Assembly (NCBI GenBank): GCA_026014745.1
Contig: JAOZHS010000002.1
Coordinates: forward strand, 1 to 64,000
DNA from: Candidatus Bathyarchaeota archaeon
GTDB lineage: Archaea > Thermoproteota > Bathyarchaeia > Bathyarchaeales > Bathycorpusculaceae
DNA: 64,000 nt
Direction: 5' to 3'
Shown here: positions 5,347 through 16,447 of the stretch, piece by piece
How the letters are laid out: the number at the start of each line of letters is the position of its first letter
Position numbering within the stretch: position 1 is the first letter of the stretch
Position numbers and translations under genes: made by a program
Notes under the pieces: model-generated
Told to the model about the DNA's origin: nothing
Seen by the model: only the letters and a program-made list of their open reading frames with translations
The model's database searches: none

Positions 5347-5940
5347 CTATAGCAGGCGACTTCCCTCTAATGCCAGAATCCTGATTGCCCGTTTTGCTAT
5401 AAAATATGCAATCGGAACGGCATATAATGCGCTTGTTATATTGTAGATAATAAATGCAGGGACTAATCCCATAACATACGTAACTGGAATAACTCTGCCA
5501 AGAACAACCGGTAACAGAATTTGATAGAGGACAAAAAAATCGACGACAGGCATGATTGAGCCTCTAAATGCCACGGCGAATCCCGTCGAATAAATCGTTG
5601 CCTTTTTTTCACTTGCTGGGCGCGCCACAGCGGATTTGCGGGCCAGACACTTTTTTGCTGAATAAATACCAAAGACCATAAGAGGCACGACCAAAAGACC
5701 CATTGGATATACTACTATGCCGCCTGGTCCTACGGGGAAAAATATCACTTGACCTATGATTTGTATTGCTTCAACTAAGATGCCAATCTTAAAGCCGTAG
5801 AGGAGAAAGGCTATGATTACGGGTATATCAGATAAGGTATAGAACCATCCGGGCCAATAAAATGTCGGTATCCTGATGGCGTTTAACACTATAGCTAACG
5901 CAGCAAAGGTTGCTATTAATGCAATTGATTTTGCATTCAT
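5347..5940 (-). CDS. ECF transporter S component-like membrane protein
   Basis: A 197-residue integral membrane protein with about five to six hydrophobic helices. Its start (MNAKSIALIATFAALAIVLN) and the following 'PIVIAF..GFKIGILV' pattern are typical of substrate-binding S components of energy-coupling factor vitamin transporters. In that family the S component captures a vitamin and works with a shared EcfA/EcfT module, none of which is encoded nearby. The substrate cannot be read from the sequence. A TATA-like stretch (TAATTAAATATAAAG on the minus strand) lies close upstream of the ATG, so the message is probably leaderless or nearly so. Confidence 0.7.
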   Translation of the reverse strand: MNAKSIALIATFAALAIVLNAIRIPTFYWPGWFYTLSDIPVIIAFLLYGFKIGILVEAIQIIGQVIFFPVGPGGIVVYPMGLLVVPLMVFGIYSAKKCLARKSAVARPASEKKATIYSTGFAVAFRGSIMPVVDFFVLYQILLPVVLGRVIPVTYVMGLVPAFIIYNITSALYAVPIAYFIAKRAIRILALEGSRLL

Positions 5941-8642: not shown

Positions 8643-9773
8643 TTAGGGTATGATTTCGGCTCCGTTGTACTTTAGGTAATCAAAATCCGCCAACGAAAGC
8701 TTACCTGACGCGATTAGCCGCCGTATTCGAGGCAACTCCGCCTCCACCGAAGCAACAAGTTCTCGAACAGTATGGCAAACCTTATCATACTCTTCATCGG
8801 GCCATCGTTTAACGATGTTAGTGTAGAGACAGCGTCCACCGCAAATCCCAAGCGTGGGGCACTCACAACAGGGTTTTTGATCCACAAACAGCTTCCTCAA
8901 ACGCATCGGGTCAGCGTCTTTTATGTGACCAAGGTAATATTTTTTCATACCCCACATGGTTGGGCAAGGCAAGATGAACCCGTCAGTTTGAATAGAATAA
9001 TTAATCCAGCCACTACCGCACCGCATCAAAGTGTTCTTTTCGTTATGTAGCAGGGATTCGGCGATGCCTAAGATGGGGTAGAGCTTTAGTACTTTGCCTT
9101 GTTGCTCCATTTGGTCCACCCAAAACCGCGTTAAGGCTTTTACGCCGGGGATGTAGCTGGTTTTTGTCCATTCCTCAAAGTTGCGGCGTTGATAATCGTT
9201 GCCCCAGAAACCCGCGTTAAGCTGCCAATGGATTGAGGTAAAGGGGAATTCGTTGTTTGAGAGGAGCCATTTGACCTGTTTTTCGATGTCTGTTTGCTCC
9301 ATAATCGTCATGCGCGCGATTAATTCGCCGCGATAGCCGTTTTGTTTTATGAGCTTGAGGTTGTCGATGACTTTGCGAAAGATTCCTTTGCCGCGATAGT
9401 AATCGGTTAGGGCTTCTTCGCCGTCAATTGAGACCAAAAGCGTGTGGAAACGGTTAACGTATTTGGGTTCGAGTTTGTCAAGGAGCATCCCGTTGGTCTG
9501 CATCATGTAATGTTTGGGCGAGACTTTGTCCATGATTTGACGCAGCTTTTCAATCTGCATAAGGGGTTCGCCGCCATAGAAGGTTAAAACGCAATCAGGA
9601 TCGCGGCGGCAAAAATTGTCCAGCAAACCTATGTCATAGTTGAGTTTGCGGGGGAGTTCATAGTCGATTTCTATGTCGTCTCCGAATTCTTCGTCGAAGT
9701 CATCGAGGCTTTCTCCGAAGCAGTATTTGCATTGAAGGTTGCAGTCGCTGGTGAGGATCACATGGAAGAACAT
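8643..9773 (-). CDS. Radical SAM/SPASM peptide-modifying enzyme, AF1577-like
   Basis: A 376-residue radical SAM protein. The [4Fe-4S]-SAM motif CxxxCxxC is C11, C15, C18 (TSDCNLQCKYCF), followed by the TFYGGEPL motif that contacts SAM. The C-terminal ~110 residues are cysteine-rich (RCGSGW..., LPCP, KPCCECPTLGICGGRC, KVC) and match the SPASM/twitch layout that holds auxiliary Fe-S clusters in peptide- and protein-modifying enzymes. The overall sequence resembles the archaeal AF1577 family, described as putative peptide-modifying. Its gene follows an MFS gene by 25 bases and is probably cotranscribed with it. Two tiny genes for peptides ending in GGWY lie 1.5 and 2.7 kb away and are candidate substrates. 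Substrate and reaction are inference. Confidence 0.85.
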   Translation of the reverse strand: MFFHVILTSDCNLQCKYCFGESLDDFDEEFGDDIEIDYELPRKLNYDIGLLDNFCRRDPDCVLTFYGGEPLMQIEKLRQIMDKVSPKHYMMQTNGMLLDKLEPKYVNRFHTLLVSIDGEEALTDYYRGKGIFRKVIDNLKLIKQNGYRGELIARMTIMEQTDIEKQVKWLLSNNEFPFTSIHWQLNAGFWGNDYQRRNFEEWTKTSYIPGVKALTRFWVDQMEQQGKVLKLYPILGIAESLLHNEKNTLMRCGSGWINYSIQTDGFILPCPTMWGMKKYYLGHIKDADPMRLRKLFVDQKPCCECPTLGICGGRCLYTNIVKRWPDEEYDKVCHTVRELVASVEAELPRIRRLIASGKLSLADFDYLKYNGAEIIP

Positions 9774-9798
9774 GAACTCATATCAGGGGCGGTCTGGC

Positions 9799-11157
9799 TT
9801 AATAGTATTTTTCCGCGAGTTTTCGAGCTTCCTCGAATTCTTTGCTGTTTTCGGTTTTTGAAGGCTCCTCTTCAGGAGAGGCTTCTGTGTCGTCTTGAGG
9901 CTTCTGTTTAATTTTTTGGCTTTCTTTTTGCACCTTCTTTTGGGCATTTTCTATGTAGTTTTTGAGGTCTCGGTCCTTCATTGTTTTCTCAGACAAAGTT
10001 TCAGGTGCATAAATCAAGGGTAAAATGGCGATGAATAGGAAGACGCTTGCGAAAGAGAAGATTGTTCCTAAAGATATGCCCGATAATAGGGGTGTAAAGA
10101 ATAGTTGGATAACGTATGATGATAGGAAGGGTAAGGCGCCTAAAAAGTAGAATTTGTCACTGTAATTGCCTTGAGCTAGGTCGCCCCAGAGGGTAAATAA
10201 GAAGAGTACGTTGAAAATTCCCCAAGTTATCCCATCGGTTATGGTGTATATTATGGTTCCGATGAAGGGGTACACGTCGCTGGTAAGCCCTACAACAGCG
10301 TAACCGATACCCAACATGACAAAGCCAATTATGGTTAAGCGTTTGCGCCCCCATCGGTCTGCGATGAATCCGCTGATAACAGCTGTTATTGCGACAATTA
10401 CATATTCCCATGAAGAGAAAAAGTTGTAATTGCTTTCGGGGTTGCTAATTAGAATTGGGAGGGTCATGTAATTAATTAGAGTAATCATTAGCCAGGGGAA
10501 GAAATATAGCAGGAATGATTTGTTGCCGACAACGGTTTTGAAATGCACAGTCTTTTTTCCCGTGTAGGGTTGTTCTTGTCGGCGCATAAACAAGAAAATT
10601 ATCAGGCCTATCACTTTTACAAGAGCTAAAGCTAAACAAGTTAAGATGAAATTGTCAAAAATTAGTAATGAGACAAGTGCAGAACTGACTCCGATTATTA
10701 GGAAGGTTAAGCCGCCGACTTTTGCGCGGTCTTCAGTTTCCACTAAACTCGAGTGGAATCCCATTGTCGCGGGCATGCCTATGCCGAAGTATAAACCGAA
10801 AATTAGGGAAACAAGGACTAATGAGTTTAAATCTAGTGCAGTAAAGGCTATTGGCGCAAGGGACAGAACTATACCCAAGCTTAGCCAAACGAAGAGGAAG
10901 CGTTGGCGACCCTTTAATTTGTCAACTATGAATGAACCGAGTAAGCTGGAAAGGATGATTGCGCTTAAGTTGACTCCGAAAACCAAAATTGTGTTGTTGG
11001 TTGCTAGGCTTAGGTTGGTAGCGTCTATTCCTTCAAGCCAACCTTTCAGGGCGTTAAATGCTATCAGGTACCAAATAAAGGCGCTAGCTAGTAGGATTAC
11101 GTTACCTGCAGATAGCTTGAAGCTTTCTTTGGTTTTTCCGAACGGCATGTGGAACAT
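9799..11157 (-). CDS. MFS transporter with charged C-terminal tail
   Basis: A 452-residue protein with about twelve membrane helices and the MFS signature-like loop after helix 2 (DKLKGRQR) and its echo after helix 8 (DRWGRKR). A cytoplasmic tail of ~60 residues, rich in Lys and Glu, follows the last helix. It is the first gene of a probable two-gene operon with the radical SAM enzyme. It is transcribed divergently from the 14-residue GGWY peptide gene across a 150-bp gap. In this setting export of a modified peptide is a reasonable guess, but MFS substrates cannot be inferred from sequence alone. The start could be either of two ATG codons (11157 or 11148). Confidence 0.85.
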   Translation of the reverse strand: MFHMPFGKTKESFKLSAGNVILLASAFIWYLIAFNALKGWLEGIDATNLSLATNNTILVFGVNLSAIILSSLLGSFIVDKLKGRQRFLFVWLSLGIVLSLAPIAFTALDLNSLVLVSLIFGLYFGIGMPATMGFHSSLVETEDRAKVGGLTFLIIGVSSALVSLLIFDNFILTCLALALVKVIGLIIFLFMRRQEQPYTGKKTVHFKTVVGNKSFLLYFFPWLMITLINYMTLPILISNPESNYNFFSSWEYVIVAITAVISGFIADRWGRKRLTIIGFVMLGIGYAVVGLTSDVYPFIGTIIYTITDGITWGIFNVLFLFTLWGDLAQGNYSDKFYFLGALPFLSSYVIQLFFTPLLSGISLGTIFSFASVFLFIAILPLIYAPETLSEKTMKDRDLKNYIENAQKKVQKESQKIKQKPQDDTEASPEEEPSKTENSKEFEEARKLAEKYY

Positions 11158-11241
11158 CAGCTACAAGCATACTATTGGTTGAAGTCTTCAAATTAAGGGT
11201 TGAGAATTTAGAAACAATATTTTTGATATACAGAAAATCGC

Positions 11242-11303
11242 GTATGAATCATACCGAAAAATTTTAAAGCATACTAGTAGAACAATAATACAAGTTGGAG
11301 GAG
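11242..11303 (+). promoter_or_regulatory. Promoter and possible operator of GGWY peptide gene 1
   Basis: A 13-bp perfect palindrome with a 3-base centre, GTATG-AAT-CATAC (11242-11254), is followed at once by a BRE/TATA-like CGAAAAATTTTAAAG (TATA 11262-11269). The transcript would start near 11290-11295, just before a perfect Shine-Dalgarno site GGAGGAG (11297-11303). The palindrome's position upstream of the BRE suits an activator or repressor site, and it could serve the divergent MFS gene too. Confidence 0.6.
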
Positions 11304-11310
11304 AGTTAGA

Positions 11311-11355
11311 ATGAAGGCAAACAACAAAGTAATCCGCACAGGCGGATGGTATTAA
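11311..11355 (+). CDS. GGWY mini-peptide 1 (14 aa), candidate RiPP precursor
   Basis: ATG at 11311 is preceded seven bases upstream by a perfect Shine-Dalgarno site GGAGGAG and by a good TATA box. The frame encodes MKANNKVIRTGGWY and a TAA stop. The peptide is basic, has no signal sequence, and ends in Thr-Gly-Gly-Trp-Tyr, exactly like the 17-residue peptide encoded 1.1 kb away on the other strand. Two independent tiny genes with good start signals and the same C-terminus make chance unlikely. A C-terminal aromatic pair recalls mycofactocin, where a radical SAM enzyme acts on a C-terminal Val-Tyr; Trp also recalls ComX. The stop overlaps the stop of the prenyl-synthase-like gene on the other strand. 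Function is inference. Confidence 0.72.
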   Translation: MKANNKVIRTGGWY

Positions 11356-12356
11356 ACCGTAAAATAGAGAAGAGGAGCTAAGAGCAAGTCTTCAAGTTCT
11401 TCTCTCATCTTTCCCTTTATTTTGACCAAGCTTTCTACACCCACCTTTGAGTTTGAGACCAAAAAATGATGCAGAGCATCCGCTTCGGGCGAATCAAGAA
11501 CAGCATCAACAAATTTTTCATGCAACTCAGCAGTTAATGCGCCCTCTTTGAGCATAGGAAGCAGAATTGACCTTTTTTCGGGGTTTTGCAAGACATAGAT
11601 CACGGGTAAAGGAAGACACTCGTTTTTTATTCGATGAGTAAATTCTTCAAAATCAAACAGGTCCAAGAATTCTTCAATTATAATGGAATTAACTCCGTAA
11701 ATCCTGCCAAAGTTTCCCAAGTCATCAATAACCTCGGAATCGCCGTTGCCTAAGAGGGCACCGATTCTAAAAGCAAGTTCCGGCACCACCGCTTTTAACT
11801 TAATCACATCATGCACATCATTAGGCGTTAAATCTAAACGCCCCCGAAGACGAGTCTCTAAGGCTTCTGCGTTAGAAATCTCAAAAATTGCACCATTGGT
11901 TAACTCCAAGATTTTAGCGGATGAGTGCGGATTAATTGACCGCGAGGCTTCAATTAATTGCTTAACACCTTCCACTAACAAAATGTCTCCCGCCAATATC
12001 GTGGTGCCTACTCCGAATTTACCTAGAACAGTCTGCTTTGAACCCTTACTGAGCGATTGGTCAATCACGTCATCATGCAAATCAGCAGCTGCACTTATCA
12101 AAACGATAGCTTCCCCAAAGGGAGTCACTTTTGCCCCGTCGCCCCCAACAGCCTCACAAGACATAGAAATCAAAGCCGGAAAAACAGGCAATGCACCTTG
12201 AAGAGTTACTTCAGCGAAGTATCGTAGAGCTTGAGAAATGGCATAGTCGTCTCTAAATTGGGAGAGTATTTTTTTCTGGGTGTTTGCTAAGGCTTCATCG
12301 CCTCTTTGGTGGAAGCCTTTTTTGATTTCCATTAATTTGGAGTCGTCTGAAGACAT
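11352..12356 (-). CDS. Isoprenyl diphosphate synthase homologue with degenerate motifs
   Basis: A 334-residue all-helical protein of the trans-isoprenyl diphosphate synthase fold. The first aspartate-rich motif is intact (HDDVID, D95/D96/D99) and is followed by the family pattern TVLGKFGVGTTILAGD. Two features are off. The Arg-Arg-Gly that normally follows the first motif and helps bind isopentenyl diphosphate is replaced by SLSKG. The second aspartate-rich motif (normally DDxxD) reads EEFLD (228-232). The gene lies between the two GGWY peptide genes. ComQ, which prenylates the Trp of the ComX pheromone, is a divergent member of this fold, so a peptide prenyltransferase is a serious option; an ordinary lipid-chain synthase with relaxed motifs is the alternative. 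Upstream on the minus strand CTTATACAAA may be its TATA box. Confidence 0.8.
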   Translation of the reverse strand: MSSDDSKLMEIKKGFHQRGDEALANTQKKILSQFRDDYAISQALRYFAEVTLQGALPVFPALISMSCEAVGGDGAKVTPFGEAIVLISAAADLHDDVIDQSLSKGSKQTVLGKFGVGTTILAGDILLVEGVKQLIEASRSINPHSSAKILELTNGAIFEISNAEALETRLRGRLDLTPNDVHDVIKLKAVVPELAFRIGALLGNGDSEVIDDLGNFGRIYGVNSIIIEEFLDLFDFEEFTHRIKNECLPLPVIYVLQNPEKRSILLPMLKEGALTAELHEKFVDAVLDSPEADALHHFLVSNSKVGVESLVKIKGKMREELEDLLLAPLLYFTV

Positions 12357-12478
12357 CGGCTAAGCCCTCGTTAGCTTCAATAGATGTCGAGTTTGTATAA
12401 GTGCTTTTAGAAAACAAAATAATAAACAAAAAGTGTTAGTTGGTTGATAGATTACCGGTTAAGTGGAGCAGTACTTTT

Positions 12479-12532
12479 TTAGTACCAGCCGCCGGTTGCG
12501 GGTTTTGCTTGGACGATTCTTTTTGCATTCAT
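12479..12532 (-). CDS. GGWY mini-peptide 2 (17 aa), candidate RiPP precursor
   Basis: On the minus strand ATG 12532 follows GAGGTG by six bases and encodes MNAKRIVQAKPATGGWY, ending at a TAA. A GTG nine bases upstream is a less likely start. The last five residues TGGWY equal those of the 14-residue peptide on the plus strand, and both N-terminal parts are short, basic and lack a signal peptide. The gene sits in the gap between the secreted protease and the prenyl-synthase homologue, all on the same strand, so a shared transcript is possible. The stop codon lies inside a small hairpin (GTACT-AAAAA-AGTAC), which may end or slow transcription. Confidence 0.72.
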   Translation of the reverse strand: MNAKRIVQAKPATGGWY

Positions 12533-12538
12533 GTTTTT

Positions 12539-12571
12539 CACCTCTTCTTGCAAGCTTACCTTAAATTTAAG
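12539..12571 (-). promoter_or_regulatory. TATA box and Shine-Dalgarno of GGWY peptide gene 2
   Basis: On the minus strand CTTAAATTTAAGG (12560-12571) overlaps the stop codon of the protease gene and lies about 30 bases before the peptide ATG. GAGGTG (12539-12544) is the Shine-Dalgarno site. The spacing would start transcription very close to the Shine-Dalgarno site, so the peptide may instead be translated from protease read-through. Confidence 0.45.
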
Positions 12572-13391
12572 ATAGGTAATTGTTGAGCCAACCCAATATC
12601 GTGGCCACGTCAAGTCTTGTGTGGTAGGTAACTCCGTTGCAGTTGACGTTGCTAACAAAAGCGTTTACCGCAACTACAATTTCTTCTCCAGAGCTGTCGG
12701 TGTAGATTACTGGTCCGCCTGAGTCGCCAAAGGATATTCCGCCTTTATCTTGAGCCGAGTTAGCGGTTAATTTGAGATATAGATCGCTGCCTTGAAAGTT
12801 AGATGCAATTAATTGTGCCTGAGCACTGTTGCAGGAGAGACTTCCTATCCATGAGTCCATGACGCCGTTGTTTTTCGGGGTAACTTGGGTTTGGAATCCA
12901 TAGCCGATTACGGTTAGGGCGGTTTTTTGAGGTAGCGTTTCTGTGAAACCAGCCGTGGGTAAGGTTGGAAATTCGGTTACGCCACTGACGGGTGTGTCCA
13001 GCAGAATTAAGCCTATGTCGCTGGTTGCGAATTCTTGGTTGCCGGATAAGGTTGGGAAGTAGCCTGGATAAGCCACGGGGGTGCCATCGTATATTGGCTC
13101 GTCTCCGTTGTAGCTAAGTGTGCCGTCGGGATTTAAGGCGAAGTTAATGGGTCCTTTGTCGAAGCAGACGCTAACAGCTGCTGCGCCAAGTAAACTGTGG
13201 CCTGCTGTAACCATTACGTTGTGAGAAATCAAAAAGCCAGTTGAGTAACTGATGGGTTGCGTTTTTGCGGCGTCGCTGAAGGCAACAACGATGCCGACGT
13301 AGGGTGTGGAGTCGGGGTTGTAGTTGCCAGTTATTGCGGTGGCTACGCCTGTGAATAAACCTATAATCATGGCGAGTGAAATAAGGAGCAC
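12567..13391 (-). CDS. Secreted trypsin-like serine protease (S1 family)
   Basis: A 274-residue protein. Residues 1-20 form a signal peptide (hydrophobic core ending VATAITG). The chymotrypsin-fold triad is complete: H65 in VTAGHS, D125 in SDIGLILL, and S224 in FGDSGGPV. A Tyr/His-rich C-terminal part closes the domain; there is no membrane anchor, so it probably acts outside the cell. The start is GTG 13391; an in-frame stop lies 14 codons upstream and no ATG lies between. S1 proteases are uncommon in archaea. It lies immediately upstream of GGWY peptide 2, which raises the possibility that it processes an exported peptide or a receptor, but general proteolysis is equally possible. Confidence 0.85.
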   Translation of the reverse strand: MLLISLAMIIGLFTGVATAITGNYNPDSTPYVGIVVAFSDAAKTQPISYSTGFLISHNVMVTAGHSLLGAAAVSVCFDKGPINFALNPDGTLSYNGDEPIYDGTPVAYPGYFPTLSGNQEFATSDIGLILLDTPVSGVTEFPTLPTAGFTETLPQKTALTVIGYGFQTQVTPKNNGVMDSWIGSLSCNSAQAQLIASNFQGSDLYLKLTANSAQDKGGISFGDSGGPVIYTDSSGEEIVVAVNAFVSNVNCNGVTYHTRLDVATILGWLNNYLS

Positions 13392-13564: not shown

Positions 13565-16447
13565 ATGAGCCAAACCAAGCAACTCGAGCAAAAATGGCAG
13601 CAACGATGGGAAAACGCCCATCTCTTCGAAGCCGACCCCGACCTCAACCGCGAAAAAAAGATGGTTACCTTCCCTTTTCCCTACATGAACGGCCCCCTTC
13701 ATGTCGGACACACCTTCACCGCGTCACGTGTGGATGCGTATGCACGGTTTAAGCGAATGCAGGGCTACAATGTGCTGTGGCCTTGGGCGTGGCATTGGAC
13801 CGGTCAGCCGCTGCTTGGAGCTTCCCAAAGAGTCGCAAGGGGCGATGCGGCGTTCATTAAAGTGCTCCGAGAAGTCGACGGCGTCCCCGAAGCGGCGCTG
13901 GAGAGGTTTGTTGATCCTCATTTTATGGCTCAATATTACACTGACGAAGGCCGCAAAGCCGCCAAAAGCATAGGTTTTAGTGTTGATTGGCGTCGCGAAT
14001 TCACTACAATAACGCCCACTTTTGAAAAGTTTATCGAGTGGCAATACAAGAACCTCAAAGAAAAAGGCTACGTCACCCGCGGCACCCACCCAGTGGTTTG
14101 GTGCCCCAAAGACCAATCCCCCACCGGCGACCATGACCGCCAAGTCGGCGAAGGCGTCACACCCGAAGAATACACCCTTATCAAATACCGCTTACCAGAC
14201 GGCACCGTCTTGCCCGCGGCAACTTTTCGTCCTGAAACAATTTATGGCATCACTAACATGTGGCTAAACCCCGACGCCACCTATGTTGAAGCAGACGTAA
14301 ACGGGGAAACATGGATTATTAGCCAAGAAGCCGCAGAGAAACTCAAGGAACAAGAACGCAAGGTCACGGTGAAACGCAGCTTCCAAGGAAGGGAACTTAT
14401 CGGCAAAACGTTTGAGAATCCTGTAACGGGGCTAAAGTTTCCGATTTTGCCCGGTTGGTTTGTGGATTCTAAAACAGCTACAGGCGTAGTTTACAGTGTC
14501 CCCGCTCATGCGCCCTTTGACTGGCTGGCGCTAAGAGATTTACAGCAAAAACCCGAAGTGCTCACCCAATTCGGCATCGACCCCGCCATGGTACAGGCAA
14601 TCAAACCCATATCTATCATCAAAATGGAGGGCTTTGGCGAATTCCCCGCGGTGGAGATTGCTGACCAGATGGGCTTGAAAGACCAAAACGACCCCAAAGC
14701 CGACGAAGCCACCAAAGAACTCTACAAAAAAGAGTTCCACGGCGGCATCCTCAAACCTAACTGCGGCCCATACGCTGGCAAATCAATTCGGGAAGCCAAA
14801 GACATACTCATAGCCGACTTCAAAAAGCAAGGCGCCGCCGACTCCATGTATGACCTCTCAGAGCAAGTAGTATGCCGCTGCATGACGCCCTGCCTTGTCA
14901 AGATTCTCTCAGACCAGTGGTTCCTCGATTACTCTGAACCAAAATGGAAAGAACTAGCACACCAACTCATTGAACAACTCACCATCTACCCCGACTCCGC
15001 TAAGCCATGGTTTAACACGGTTATTGATTGGCTACGAGAGTGGGCTTGCGCACGCACGACTGGCTTTGGCACCCCGCTACCGTGGGGGAAAGGCTGGATA
15101 ATCGAGACGCTAAGCGACTCTACAGTCTACATGGCATTCTACACCGTAAACAAACACATCAAACAAAACAACATCCCACCCGAAGCCTTAACGCCTGAGG
15201 TGTTTGATTTTCTCTTTTACGGCAAAGGCACCGCGGCAGAACTCGAGAAAGCCGTCGGCATCAAAACGGACCTGCTAAACGTGATGCGTAGCGAGTTCCT
15301 CTACTGGTATCCATTAGACTTCCGCAACAGCGCCAAAGAACTCGTCCCCAACCACCTCAGCTTCTGCATCTTCCACCACGCCGCGCTTTTCCCACCTGAA
15401 CATTGGCCCAAAGCCATCGGCGTCAACGGCATGCTCATGGTTGAAGGACAAGGGATGCATAAAAGCAAAGGCAACTTCATCACCATGAAAGGCGCCGTCG
15501 AAAAATACGGAGCCGACGCCACCCGATGCGGCTTGCTCTTGGGCGCAGAGGGCATGGATGACCCTGACTGGCGAGCCGAAAACATCAACGACCTCAAAAC
15601 CAAATTTGAAGCTGTAATGGGTTTCGCAGGCGGCATCATTGCTTCCGCTAAAAAGGATGAAGATACGCCTTTGGAGCGGTGGCTAATAAGCAAAATGCAG
15701 AGCCGCATCCGAGACGTCACCGCAAGCCTTGAGGAACTTAAAACGCGGACTGCTTTGCAAACGGCGTTGTTTGAGGTTTGGAATGACCTGCGCTGGTACA
15801 TTCAACGTAAAGGCAACACCGAAGCCAAAGCCTTAGCCGAGGCAGTTAAAGACTGGCTTAAGATGCTGGCACCCTTTGCGCCGTTCATGTGTGAGGAGCT
15901 CTGGAGTCAGACTGGTGAGGAGGGCTTTATCAGCGTTGCCAAATGGCCCGTCTATGATGCTACGAAGGTTAATGTGGCTGCGTTGGAGCAGGAGAACCTC
16001 GTAACCGACGTCATGGATGACACTAACAACATCTTAAAAGCCATGAAAATCGCGCCCAAACGCATCTGCTACTACACAGCGGCGCCTTGGAAGTGGCAGG
16101 TCTACATTAAAGTGCTTGAAAAAACCGCTGCGGGCAACCCCAACATCGGCGAACTCATGAAACTCTTTGCCTCCGACCCAACACTAAAACCCCACATGAA
16201 AGACATCAGCGGTATGGTGCCTCGCATTATCAAAGCCTTAACCAAAGTTTCAGGCGACCGTAAAGCTAACATGATAAAAATCGGCGTCACAGACGAAAAA
16301 GCCATCCTTGACTCCGCCGCCACGTTCCTACATGACCGCTTCAACGCCCAAGTCACCGTCTACACCGAAGAGGACCAGCAACGTTTCGACCCCAAAAACC
16401 GCGCCGCCATGGCAGCACCCTATCAACCCGCAATATACATCGAATAA
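13565..16447 (+). CDS. leuS: Leucyl-tRNA synthetase, archaeal type
   Basis: A 960-residue class I aminoacyl-tRNA synthetase that charges tRNA-Leu. The HIGH motif reads HVGH (46-49) in the context PYMNGPLHVGHTFTASR, and the KMSKS motif reads MHKSKGNF around residue 635. A large connective (editing) domain interrupts the Rossmann fold, including RPETIYGITNMWLNP. The C-terminal anticodon-binding region has WYIQRKG and a final domain typical of archaeal and eukaryotic LeuRS rather than bacterial. Length is normal for the archaeal enzyme. GTCTTAATAG at 13531-13540 may be its TATA box, about 25-30 bases before the ATG, so the message is probably leaderless. Confidence 0.96.
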   Translation: MSQTKQLEQKWQQRWENAHLFEADPDLNREKKMVTFPFPYMNGPLHVGHTFTASRVDAYARFKRMQGYNVLWPWAWHWTGQPLLGASQRVARGDAAFIKVLREVDGVPEAALERFVDPHFMAQYYTDEGRKAAKSIGFSVDWRREFTTITPTFEKFIEWQYKNLKEKGYVTRGTHPVVWCPKDQSPTGDHDRQVGEGVTPEEYTLIKYRLPDGTVLPAATFRPETIYGITNMWLNPDATYVEADVNGETWIISQEAAEKLKEQERKVTVKRSFQGRELIGKTFENPVTGLKFPILPGWFVDSKTATGVVYSVPAHAPFDWLALRDLQQKPEVLTQFGIDPAMVQAIKPISIIKMEGFGEFPAVEIADQMGLKDQNDPKADEATKELYKKEFHGGILKPNCGPYAGKSIREAKDILIADFKKQGAADSMYDLSEQVVCRCMTPCLVKILSDQWFLDYSEPKWKELAHQLIEQLTIYPDSAKPWFNTVIDWLREWACARTTGFGTPLPWGKGWIIETLSDSTVYMAFYTVNKHIKQNNIPPEALTPEVFDFLFYGKGTAAELEKAVGIKTDLLNVMRSEFLYWYPLDFRNSAKELVPNHLSFCIFHHAALFPPEHWPKAIGVNGMLMVEGQGMHKSKGNFITMKGAVEKYGADATRCGLLLGAEGMDDPDWRAENINDLKTKFEAVMGFAGGIIASAKKDEDTPLERWLISKMQSRIRDVTASLEELKTRTALQTALFEVWNDLRWYIQRKGNTEAKALAEAVKDWLKMLAPFAPFMCEELWSQTGEEGFISVAKWPVYDATKVNVAALEQENLVTDVMDDTNNILKAMKIAPKRICYYTAAPWKWQVYIKVLEKTAAGNPNIGELMKLFASDPTLKPHMKDISGMVPRIIKALTKVSGDRKANMIKIGVTDEKAILDSAATFLHDRFNAQVTVYTEEDQQRFDPKNRAAMAAPYQPAIYIE

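Follow-up and report, generated by a model that had tools for sequence, protein, structure and literature searches.

A candidate ComQ/ComX-like prenylated peptide cassette with ultra-short precursors in Thermoproteota archaea

What is the role of two tiny open reading frames (ORFs), with products ending in the same five residues, that lie on either side of an isoprenyl-diphosphate-synthase-like (IPPS-like) gene in an uncultured archaeon? The locus occupies positions 8643-13391 of a 64,000-nucleotide stretch of Candidatus Bathyarchaeota archaeon DNA (contig JAOZHS010000002.1, positions 1 to 64,000), referred to here as the window. A sequence-only reading of the window had described a possible pheromone locus or locus for a ribosomally synthesized and posttranslationally modified peptide (RiPP), combining two mini-peptides ending in TGGWY with a radical S-adenosylmethionine (SAM) enzyme, a prenyl-synthase homologue, a major facilitator superfamily (MFS) transporter and a secreted S1 protease (S1P). 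Based on a comparison with related loci, we judge by a narrow balance of probability that the locus is a ComQ/ComX-like prenylated peptide signal cassette of Thermoproteota archaea. Its parts in the window are given below.

11311-11355, plus strand: type I mini-precursor MKANNKVIRTGGWY, 14 amino acids, core TGGWY after Arg, recognized by the slot, Shine-Dalgarno (SD) site, basic leader and [IV]R-core arrangement seen in 79 curated loci
11297-11302, plus strand: SD site GGAGGA of the type I peptide, read from the sequence
11262-11291, plus strand: type I promoter, with TATA box TTTTAAAG at 11262-11269, operator-like aGTAGAACA at 11276-11284 and AATAC at 11287-11291
11352-12356, minus strand: IPPS-like enzyme, from its motifs a probable peptide prenyltransferase (PF00348 polyprenyl synthetase, 1.2e-18; D95, D96 and D99 of the first aspartate-rich motif (FARM) kept, isopentenyl diphosphate (IPP)-site motifs lost)
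9799-11157, minus strand: MFS transporter (MFS_1), which evolves in step with the peptide and the IPPS-like enzyme
12479-12532, minus strand: type II mini-precursor MNAKRIVQAKPATGGWY, 17 amino acids, core TGGWY, directly 3' of the S1P gene, its start preceded by GAGGTG
12567-13391, minus strand: S1P, secreted, trypsin fold (Trypsin match), a candidate peptide-processing enzyme and optional part

Both mini-ORFs proved to be real genes with ribosome-binding sites, the second of them on the minus strand, for which no strand had been given before. Profile matches likewise bore out the proposed identities of the radical SAM/SPASM enzyme, the PF00348 prenyl-synthase fold, the MFS transporter and the trypsin-fold protease. 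In the window, the type I mini-ORF is antisense to the 3' end of the IPPS-like gene, with an overlap of their stop codons at 11352-11355. Relatives of the IPPS-like gene are present in Candidatus Bathyarchaeota metagenome-assembled genomes (for example PLYI01000081.1, QYYE01000068.1 and JAOZHZ010000028.1, among others), and the IPPS-like and MFS genes are neighbors in nearly all loci examined. The type I slot is the stretch that separates the IPPS-like stop from the start of MFS, read on the opposite strand. A strict screen, which required a basic N terminus, [IVLMPAT]R within the last residues and an SD site, found this slot occupied in 61 of 64 IPPS-MFS loci. Markov shuffles gave a mean of 4.8 of 64 (maximum 11), the other strand 2 of 64, and random windows 7. 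The matches at loci L080 and L181 are spurious, but L080 does contain a genuine peptide whose SD site is weak, so that about 60 of the 64 are real. Mini-ORFs of this type and their place in the locus are thus conserved in relatives. In a family from a different class of the same phylum (f30), MKSYNPTPVRLWVPG-like peptides occupy the slot in 10 of 10 loci, some as tandem copies. No type I peptide was found in L163, L164 and L168, all of one genus, nor in L214, L216, L218 and L240. Nor was one found in the more distant isoprenyl diphosphate synthase (IDS)-like paralogs L223-L226, save for a weak candidate, MRRNTIRKDKTTLSALW, in the equivalent antisense slot of L223.

Our curated type I set comprises 79 peptides, 77 of them distinct, with 74 distinct cores. 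These peptides have 10-23 residues, with a leader that contains about 4.9 Lys or Arg and 0.3 Asp or Glu residues, followed usually by P-[IV]-R and then by a hypervariable core of 2-9 residues, mostly 3-5. Examples are MKPIRPIRGAWW, MKKKGKIPVRYWWY, MKNNKPIRLAGSWI, MKKNNKIIRSAGWM and the Trp-less MAKRVKKVPIRAGP of L085. Trp is present in 61 of the 79 cores and an aromatic residue in 72, but only one leader contains Trp. All 79 peptides contain Arg, which is partly by construction because Arg was in the search rule for most loci; the peptides of several loci were recognized before that rule was set. The tail TGGWY is shared by the two window peptides, as had been noted, but is not the defining motif of the family. 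A GGWY-stop pattern matches only at these two genes in the 2.7-Mb genome, and a search of 61 relatives returned chance-level matches only, so the conservation expected for these letters was not borne out. Instead, the recurring feature is a basic leader, P-[IV]-R and a variable, mostly Trp-containing core.

Nucleotide changes indicate that the mini-ORFs are protein-coding. In pairs of similar type I genes, which are not independent of each other, 54 of 114 differences (about 47%) were in synonymous codons as opposed to 22% expected, and L155 and L165 encode an identical peptide despite seven synonymous differences and no nonsynonymous one (7:0). The type II peptides provide further evidence. 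S1P homologues are present in 11 of 257 genomes of the class; eight adjoin an IPPS-like gene and one more lies at a contig end. A type II peptide directly follows S1P in all eight IPPS-linked loci, which supports the earlier inclusion of the protease in the unit, together with the second peptide. These type II sequences are MNAKRIVQAKPATGGWY in the window, MNKRVIRGKPITTGWY (L074), MNKKIIKAKPALTGWY (L075), MSNKRNIRAKPVPTSVGMWW (L201), MNKKAKIQAKPTPTVVGMWW (L202), MVKKRAVRVKASPASFVMWW (L203), MAKKRAVRAKAQPAFYMWW (L204) and MAKRAVRAKGGVQPTVVSVWW (L181), of which some start with TTG and that of L203 was read by eye from the DNA. Where both types occur their cores agree: TGGWY/TGGWY in the window, PTGWY/TTGWY in L074, LTGWY/LTGWY in L075 and SAGWM/SAGWM in L236. 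At L236 the second precursor, MKNQKMKRSLKPMSAGWM (5866-5922, minus strand, upstream of IPPS), has a core identical to that of the type I peptide although the locus contains no S1P gene. Together with L217, a tandem type I copy, five loci have matching core pairs, compared with 0.28 (maximum 2) when tails were dealt at random. The sequence-only reading was therefore correct in linking the two GGWY tails. In type II peptides the core is shared but Arg is missing from the corresponding position, and the presence of one core on two different leaders argues strongly for the core as the functional part.

Does the core evolve with its neighbors? Two genes flank the cassette slot in the window family.

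8643-9773, minus strand: radical SAM/SPASM enzyme (rSAM), TIGR04084 306 bits (cut-off 225), a syntenic neighbor most likely outside the system
13565-16447, plus strand: leucyl-tRNA synthetase (LeuRS), conserved flank (about 80% identity within the genus) that served as species marker

Rank Mantel tests (2000 permutations) were performed on 45 loci for the comparison with rSAM and on 26 loci for that with LeuRS. In the larger set, core distance correlated with distances of the IPPS-like enzyme (0.31) and MFS (0.34) but not of rSAM (0.08, p 0.11); in the smaller set the values were 0.58, 0.61 and, for LeuRS, 0.01. The IPPS-like enzyme and MFS correlated with each other at 0.77 and 0.90, almost unchanged once the effect of rSAM or LeuRS was removed. 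Because the core, the IPPS-like enzyme and MFS co-vary while the flanking rSAM and LeuRS genes do not, the peptide, enzyme and transporter behave together as an allelic cassette that can be exchanged while its flanks stay conserved, like ComQX pherotypes. Of the single pathway that had been proposed, the mini-peptides, the IPPS-fold protein, MFS and, with the second peptide, S1P hold together; rSAM most likely does not belong to it.

The predicted AlphaFold (AF2) structure of the IPPS-like enzyme has an all-helical IDS fold with a confidence (pLDDT) of 93.7. Its nearest solved relative is Pyrococcus horikoshii geranylgeranyl diphosphate (GGPP) synthase (1wy0, E 1.9e-39), and among the best non-synthase matches is the Trp farnesyltransferase Ord1 (profile E about 1e-27; fold TM score 0.70-0.79). 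We compared the motifs of 79 family enzymes with the canonical synthase of the same genome (L222). The DDxxD of FARM is kept in 79 of 79, as is the last Asp of an acidic [DE][DE]xxD resembling the second aspartate-rich motif (SARM); Glu167 is kept in 78 and Lys188 in 75. By contrast, the Lys of GGKxxRP and the Gln of FQxxDD are each found in 0 of 79, and the second Arg of RRG is variable. We take these lost residues to be the IPP-binding residues of trans-IDS enzymes. On this basis DDxxD retention points to a kept donor site and a remodelled acceptor site, and the family does not have the IPP-site motifs of a chain-elongating isoprenyl diphosphate synthase. The pattern is as would be expected of a peptide prenyltransferase, as in ComQ and PalQ. 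PHROGs and PADLOC gave no useful match for the IPPS-like enzyme, MFS or S1P, and the viral contigs searched contained no close relative, with one match at 24%.

Type I promoters share a TATA box followed by GTWSWACA and then AATACA. The 8-mer GTWSWACA is located no more than 62 nt from the start in 62 of 79 type I promoters, compared with 1.1% of control windows, and a further copy, frequently located 5' of the TATA box, is present in 23 promoters. In 35 of the 79 loci, belonging to other genera and families than that of the window, the IPPS-like gene has PadR-family genes (PF03551) on its 5' side, in most cases two divergent ones, and the element TGTWSWACA is also present between and before these genes. 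The window genome encodes its nearest homologues of these PadR proteins at other sites: a divergent pair (G000:C3:439009-439792, 71% identity), one gene of which has the element on its 5' side, and a further one (G000:C1:946231-946440, 68%) with two copies nearby. Nine TWSWACANNAATAC sites occur in this genome compared with one in the control, and those in a clear regulatory position are at peptide and PadR genes. The arrangement of these motifs supports PadR proteins as probable binders of the element and regulators of the peptide. A wider operator regulon was considered and rejected, as the remaining sites mostly look like chance occurrences in coding sequence; an operator-like TTCTACATTAATAC 5' of an aIF6-like gene (G000:C2:234717-234730, L264) may also be due to chance.

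These observations suggest the following model. One or two ultra-short precursors of 10-23 residues, each with a basic leader and a C-terminal core, would be translated. The IDS-fold enzyme would hold an allylic prenyl diphosphate at DDxxD, and the prenyl group would be moved to the core, most likely to Trp where present. A protease, presumably S1P where present, would then cut off the leader, and MFS would carry the product across the membrane. PadR-type regulators bound to TGTWSWACA, both in the peptide promoter and beside their own genes, could close an autoregulatory loop, and cores that vary with enzyme and transporter could act as strain-specific signals, as in ComQ/ComX. By extension, Thermoproteota might communicate through ultra-short prenylated peptides sensed by an intracellular PadR-type regulator, with swappable specificity cassettes and an enzyme whose origin in archaeal prenyl synthases was independent of that of ComQ; we regard this broader proposal as possible but short of probable.

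Several observations weigh against the prenylated signal model. Trp cannot be a universal target since 18 of 79 cores lack it, and 7 lack any aromatic residue. The column just before SARM, where a Gln would be expected for Trp recognition, shows I, T, L, N, A, S and others, with Gln not among the counted residues. Trypsin-like cleavage after Arg by S1P is not supported by its sequence: position 189, assigned by spacing to GDSGG, is Gly rather than the Asp that gives trypsin its Arg specificity. The window locus itself has no PadR genes, and no histidine-kinase receptor was found; clustering of neighbors over all loci recovered the PadR and MinD/ParA families but no recurring kinase beside the IPPS-like gene. 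Finally, L098, L100, L101 and L103 contain an MFS homologue beside rSAM with no IPPS-like gene detected, which would be odd for a pure exporter. The first three also lack a type I peptide, and L103 is a contig break with its IPPS gene probably on L104. MFS-only loci could possibly represent receivers, cheaters or remnants.

Among other explanations, the mini-ORFs could be cis-regulatory leaders or noncoding RNAs acting on the convergent IPPS gene, given that the type I mini-ORF in the window is antisense to the 3' end of that gene and overlaps or abuts it. We find this barely credible in view of the excess of synonymous changes, the SD sites, the tandem copies, a distance to the IPPS end that ranges from about 0 to more than 200 nt, and the recurrence of the same core at the end of another gene in the locus. 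A joint pathway in which the TIGR04084 enzyme modifies the same peptide, as the sequence-only reading had proposed, appears highly improbable. About 25-30 nt separate the rSAM gene from the neighboring MFS gene, both in the window and in many members of the genus, and the two may be co-transcribed. However, rSAM is kept without the cassette in L093-L097, remaining beside LeuRS in cassette-free genomes, and about 17 of 61 genomes have it without a strong IPPS-like match; conversely, G041, G049 and G060 have the cassette without rSAM. The rSAM tree does not track the peptide, IPPS or MFS, and there is no covariation with core or leader after accounting for IPPS. Because both co-occurrence and covariation fail, rSAM is most likely a bystander neighbor of the cassette.

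The main rival on function is a prenylated or otherwise modified antimicrobial RiPP directed at close relatives, with MFS serving in export and immunity and core variety resulting from an arms race. Hypervariable cores, allelic replacement between conserved flanks, tandem precursor copies and the retention of MFS in a few genomes without a detected IPPS-like gene or peptide are all in agreement with it. Yet no separate immunity gene recurs, the promoter element common to the peptide and the divergent PadR pair suggests an autoregulatory circuit, and sites of the strict element with AATAC in a clear regulatory position are those at peptide and PadR genes. We consider an antimicrobial role rather unlikely. 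On chemistry, the main rival is a non-Trp target or another reaction: the enzyme might act on a terminus, on a backbone atom or, by N-prenylation, on the invariant Arg, or it might transfer no prenyl group. This alternative is unlikely but deserves serious consideration, given Arg in all peptides, the Trp-less cores and the absent Gln. Moreover, at residue 164 the enzymes paired with Trp-less cores mostly have His (14 of 18), and those paired with Trp cores mostly have Glu (52 of 61), in a count that ignores kinship. On the other hand, Trp is concentrated in cores rather than leaders, and the characterized trans-IDS-like peptide prenyltransferases, of which only ComQ, ChrPC and PalQ are described in the papers searched, all act on Trp (PMC13290415). 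Against Arg as the target in particular, type II peptides share the core without Arg at the same place, and Arg was itself part of the search rule for most peptides.

Some further features of these loci and genomes deserve mention. Near-identical tandem type I mini-genes are present in L104 (genome G020), L208, L212 and L215, and in G020 the repeat falls at a contig break. The window genome contains two additional divergent IDS-like genes, at G000:C1:1055491-1056375 (L223) and G000:C2:823501-824433 (L221), each near an MFS-like gene, and L221 is likewise without canonical IDS motifs. A MinD/ParA-like ATPase gene lies 3' of MFS in 19 loci (L155, L157, L212 and 16 others) and its small winged-helix (TrmB-like) partner in 16; in families f6, f7 and f30 this pair is convergent with MFS at the position of rSAM in the window family. 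A second, partial TIGR04084 copy with two in-frame TAG codons, at G005:C130:16938-17216, is probably a pseudogene.

In the open-licence literature we found no description of this archaeal system and no archaeal counterpart of ComX-type signals. The precursors are far below normal gene-calling size, which would explain why they were overlooked. The cassette, as interpreted here, gives experimenters a system to test in an abundant group of uncultured archaea, with genes, a promoter element, a candidate regulator and about 80 peptide variants matched to enzymes, and its enzymes constitute a family of new candidate peptide prenyltransferases, many with Trp-less substrates.

How does the cassette compare with known systems? 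It is in agreement with the general definition of a RiPP locus in that an encoded precursor with leader and core lies beside a putative modifying enzyme. Mycofactocin and other SPASM RiPP systems are similar in that a gene for a SPASM radical SAM enzyme neighbors the cassette in the window and the peptides end in Trp-Tyr, but this parallel, drawn in the sequence-only reading, falls away as rSAM neither co-occurs nor co-varies with the precursor. The enzyme resembles archaeal GGPP and polyprenyl synthases (PF00348) in fold and overall sequence, yet it differs from them in the loss of the GGKxxRP Lys, the second Arg of RRG and the FQxxDD Gln. Ord1 (PDB 9v4g, 9v4h and 9v4i), for all its similarity in sequence profile and fold, modifies free Trp, has a conserved Gln216 that the archaeal family lacks, and scores below the archaeal synthase 1wy0. 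PalQ/PalX of Paenibacillus alvei also combines an IDS-superfamily enzyme with a peptide, and the assayed PalX peptide DNVRRFFW resembles several archaeal cores in having Arg followed by aromatic residues; PalQ acts at the C-terminal Trp (PMC10853753). PalX is, however, a long NHLP-type precursor, PalP is a histidine kinase, and PalQ has a Trp-recognizing Gln at -3 of SARM, which none of the 79 archaeal enzymes has. A Gln before SARM is implicated in Trp recognition by known Trp prenyltransferases (PMC13290415); the archaeal family shares with the trans-IDS-like Trp prenyltransferases the kept FARM and the lost IPP site or repurposed SARM, but not this Gln.

ComX precursors are 52-73 residues long and have Trp among the last 5-10, the RO-E-2 pheromone has five residues, and a census of ComQXPA found none outside Firmicutes (PMC4008528). 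The archaeal precursors are far shorter and encoded on the opposite strand to the enzyme gene, and their cassette contains MFS, a PadR pair and sometimes S1P and a second precursor instead of ComP and ComA. Because the precursor, both in length and in having Trp in only 61 of 79 cores, does not fit that system and ComP and ComA are absent, we do not classify the locus as a member of ComQXPA. Nevertheless ComQ/ComX, which the sequence-only reading had already named, is the best available parallel: in both systems an IDS-fold enzyme with FARM kept and the SARM region altered adjoins and co-varies with a tiny hypervariable precursor that has a short core and, in most archaeal cases, Trp near its C terminus.

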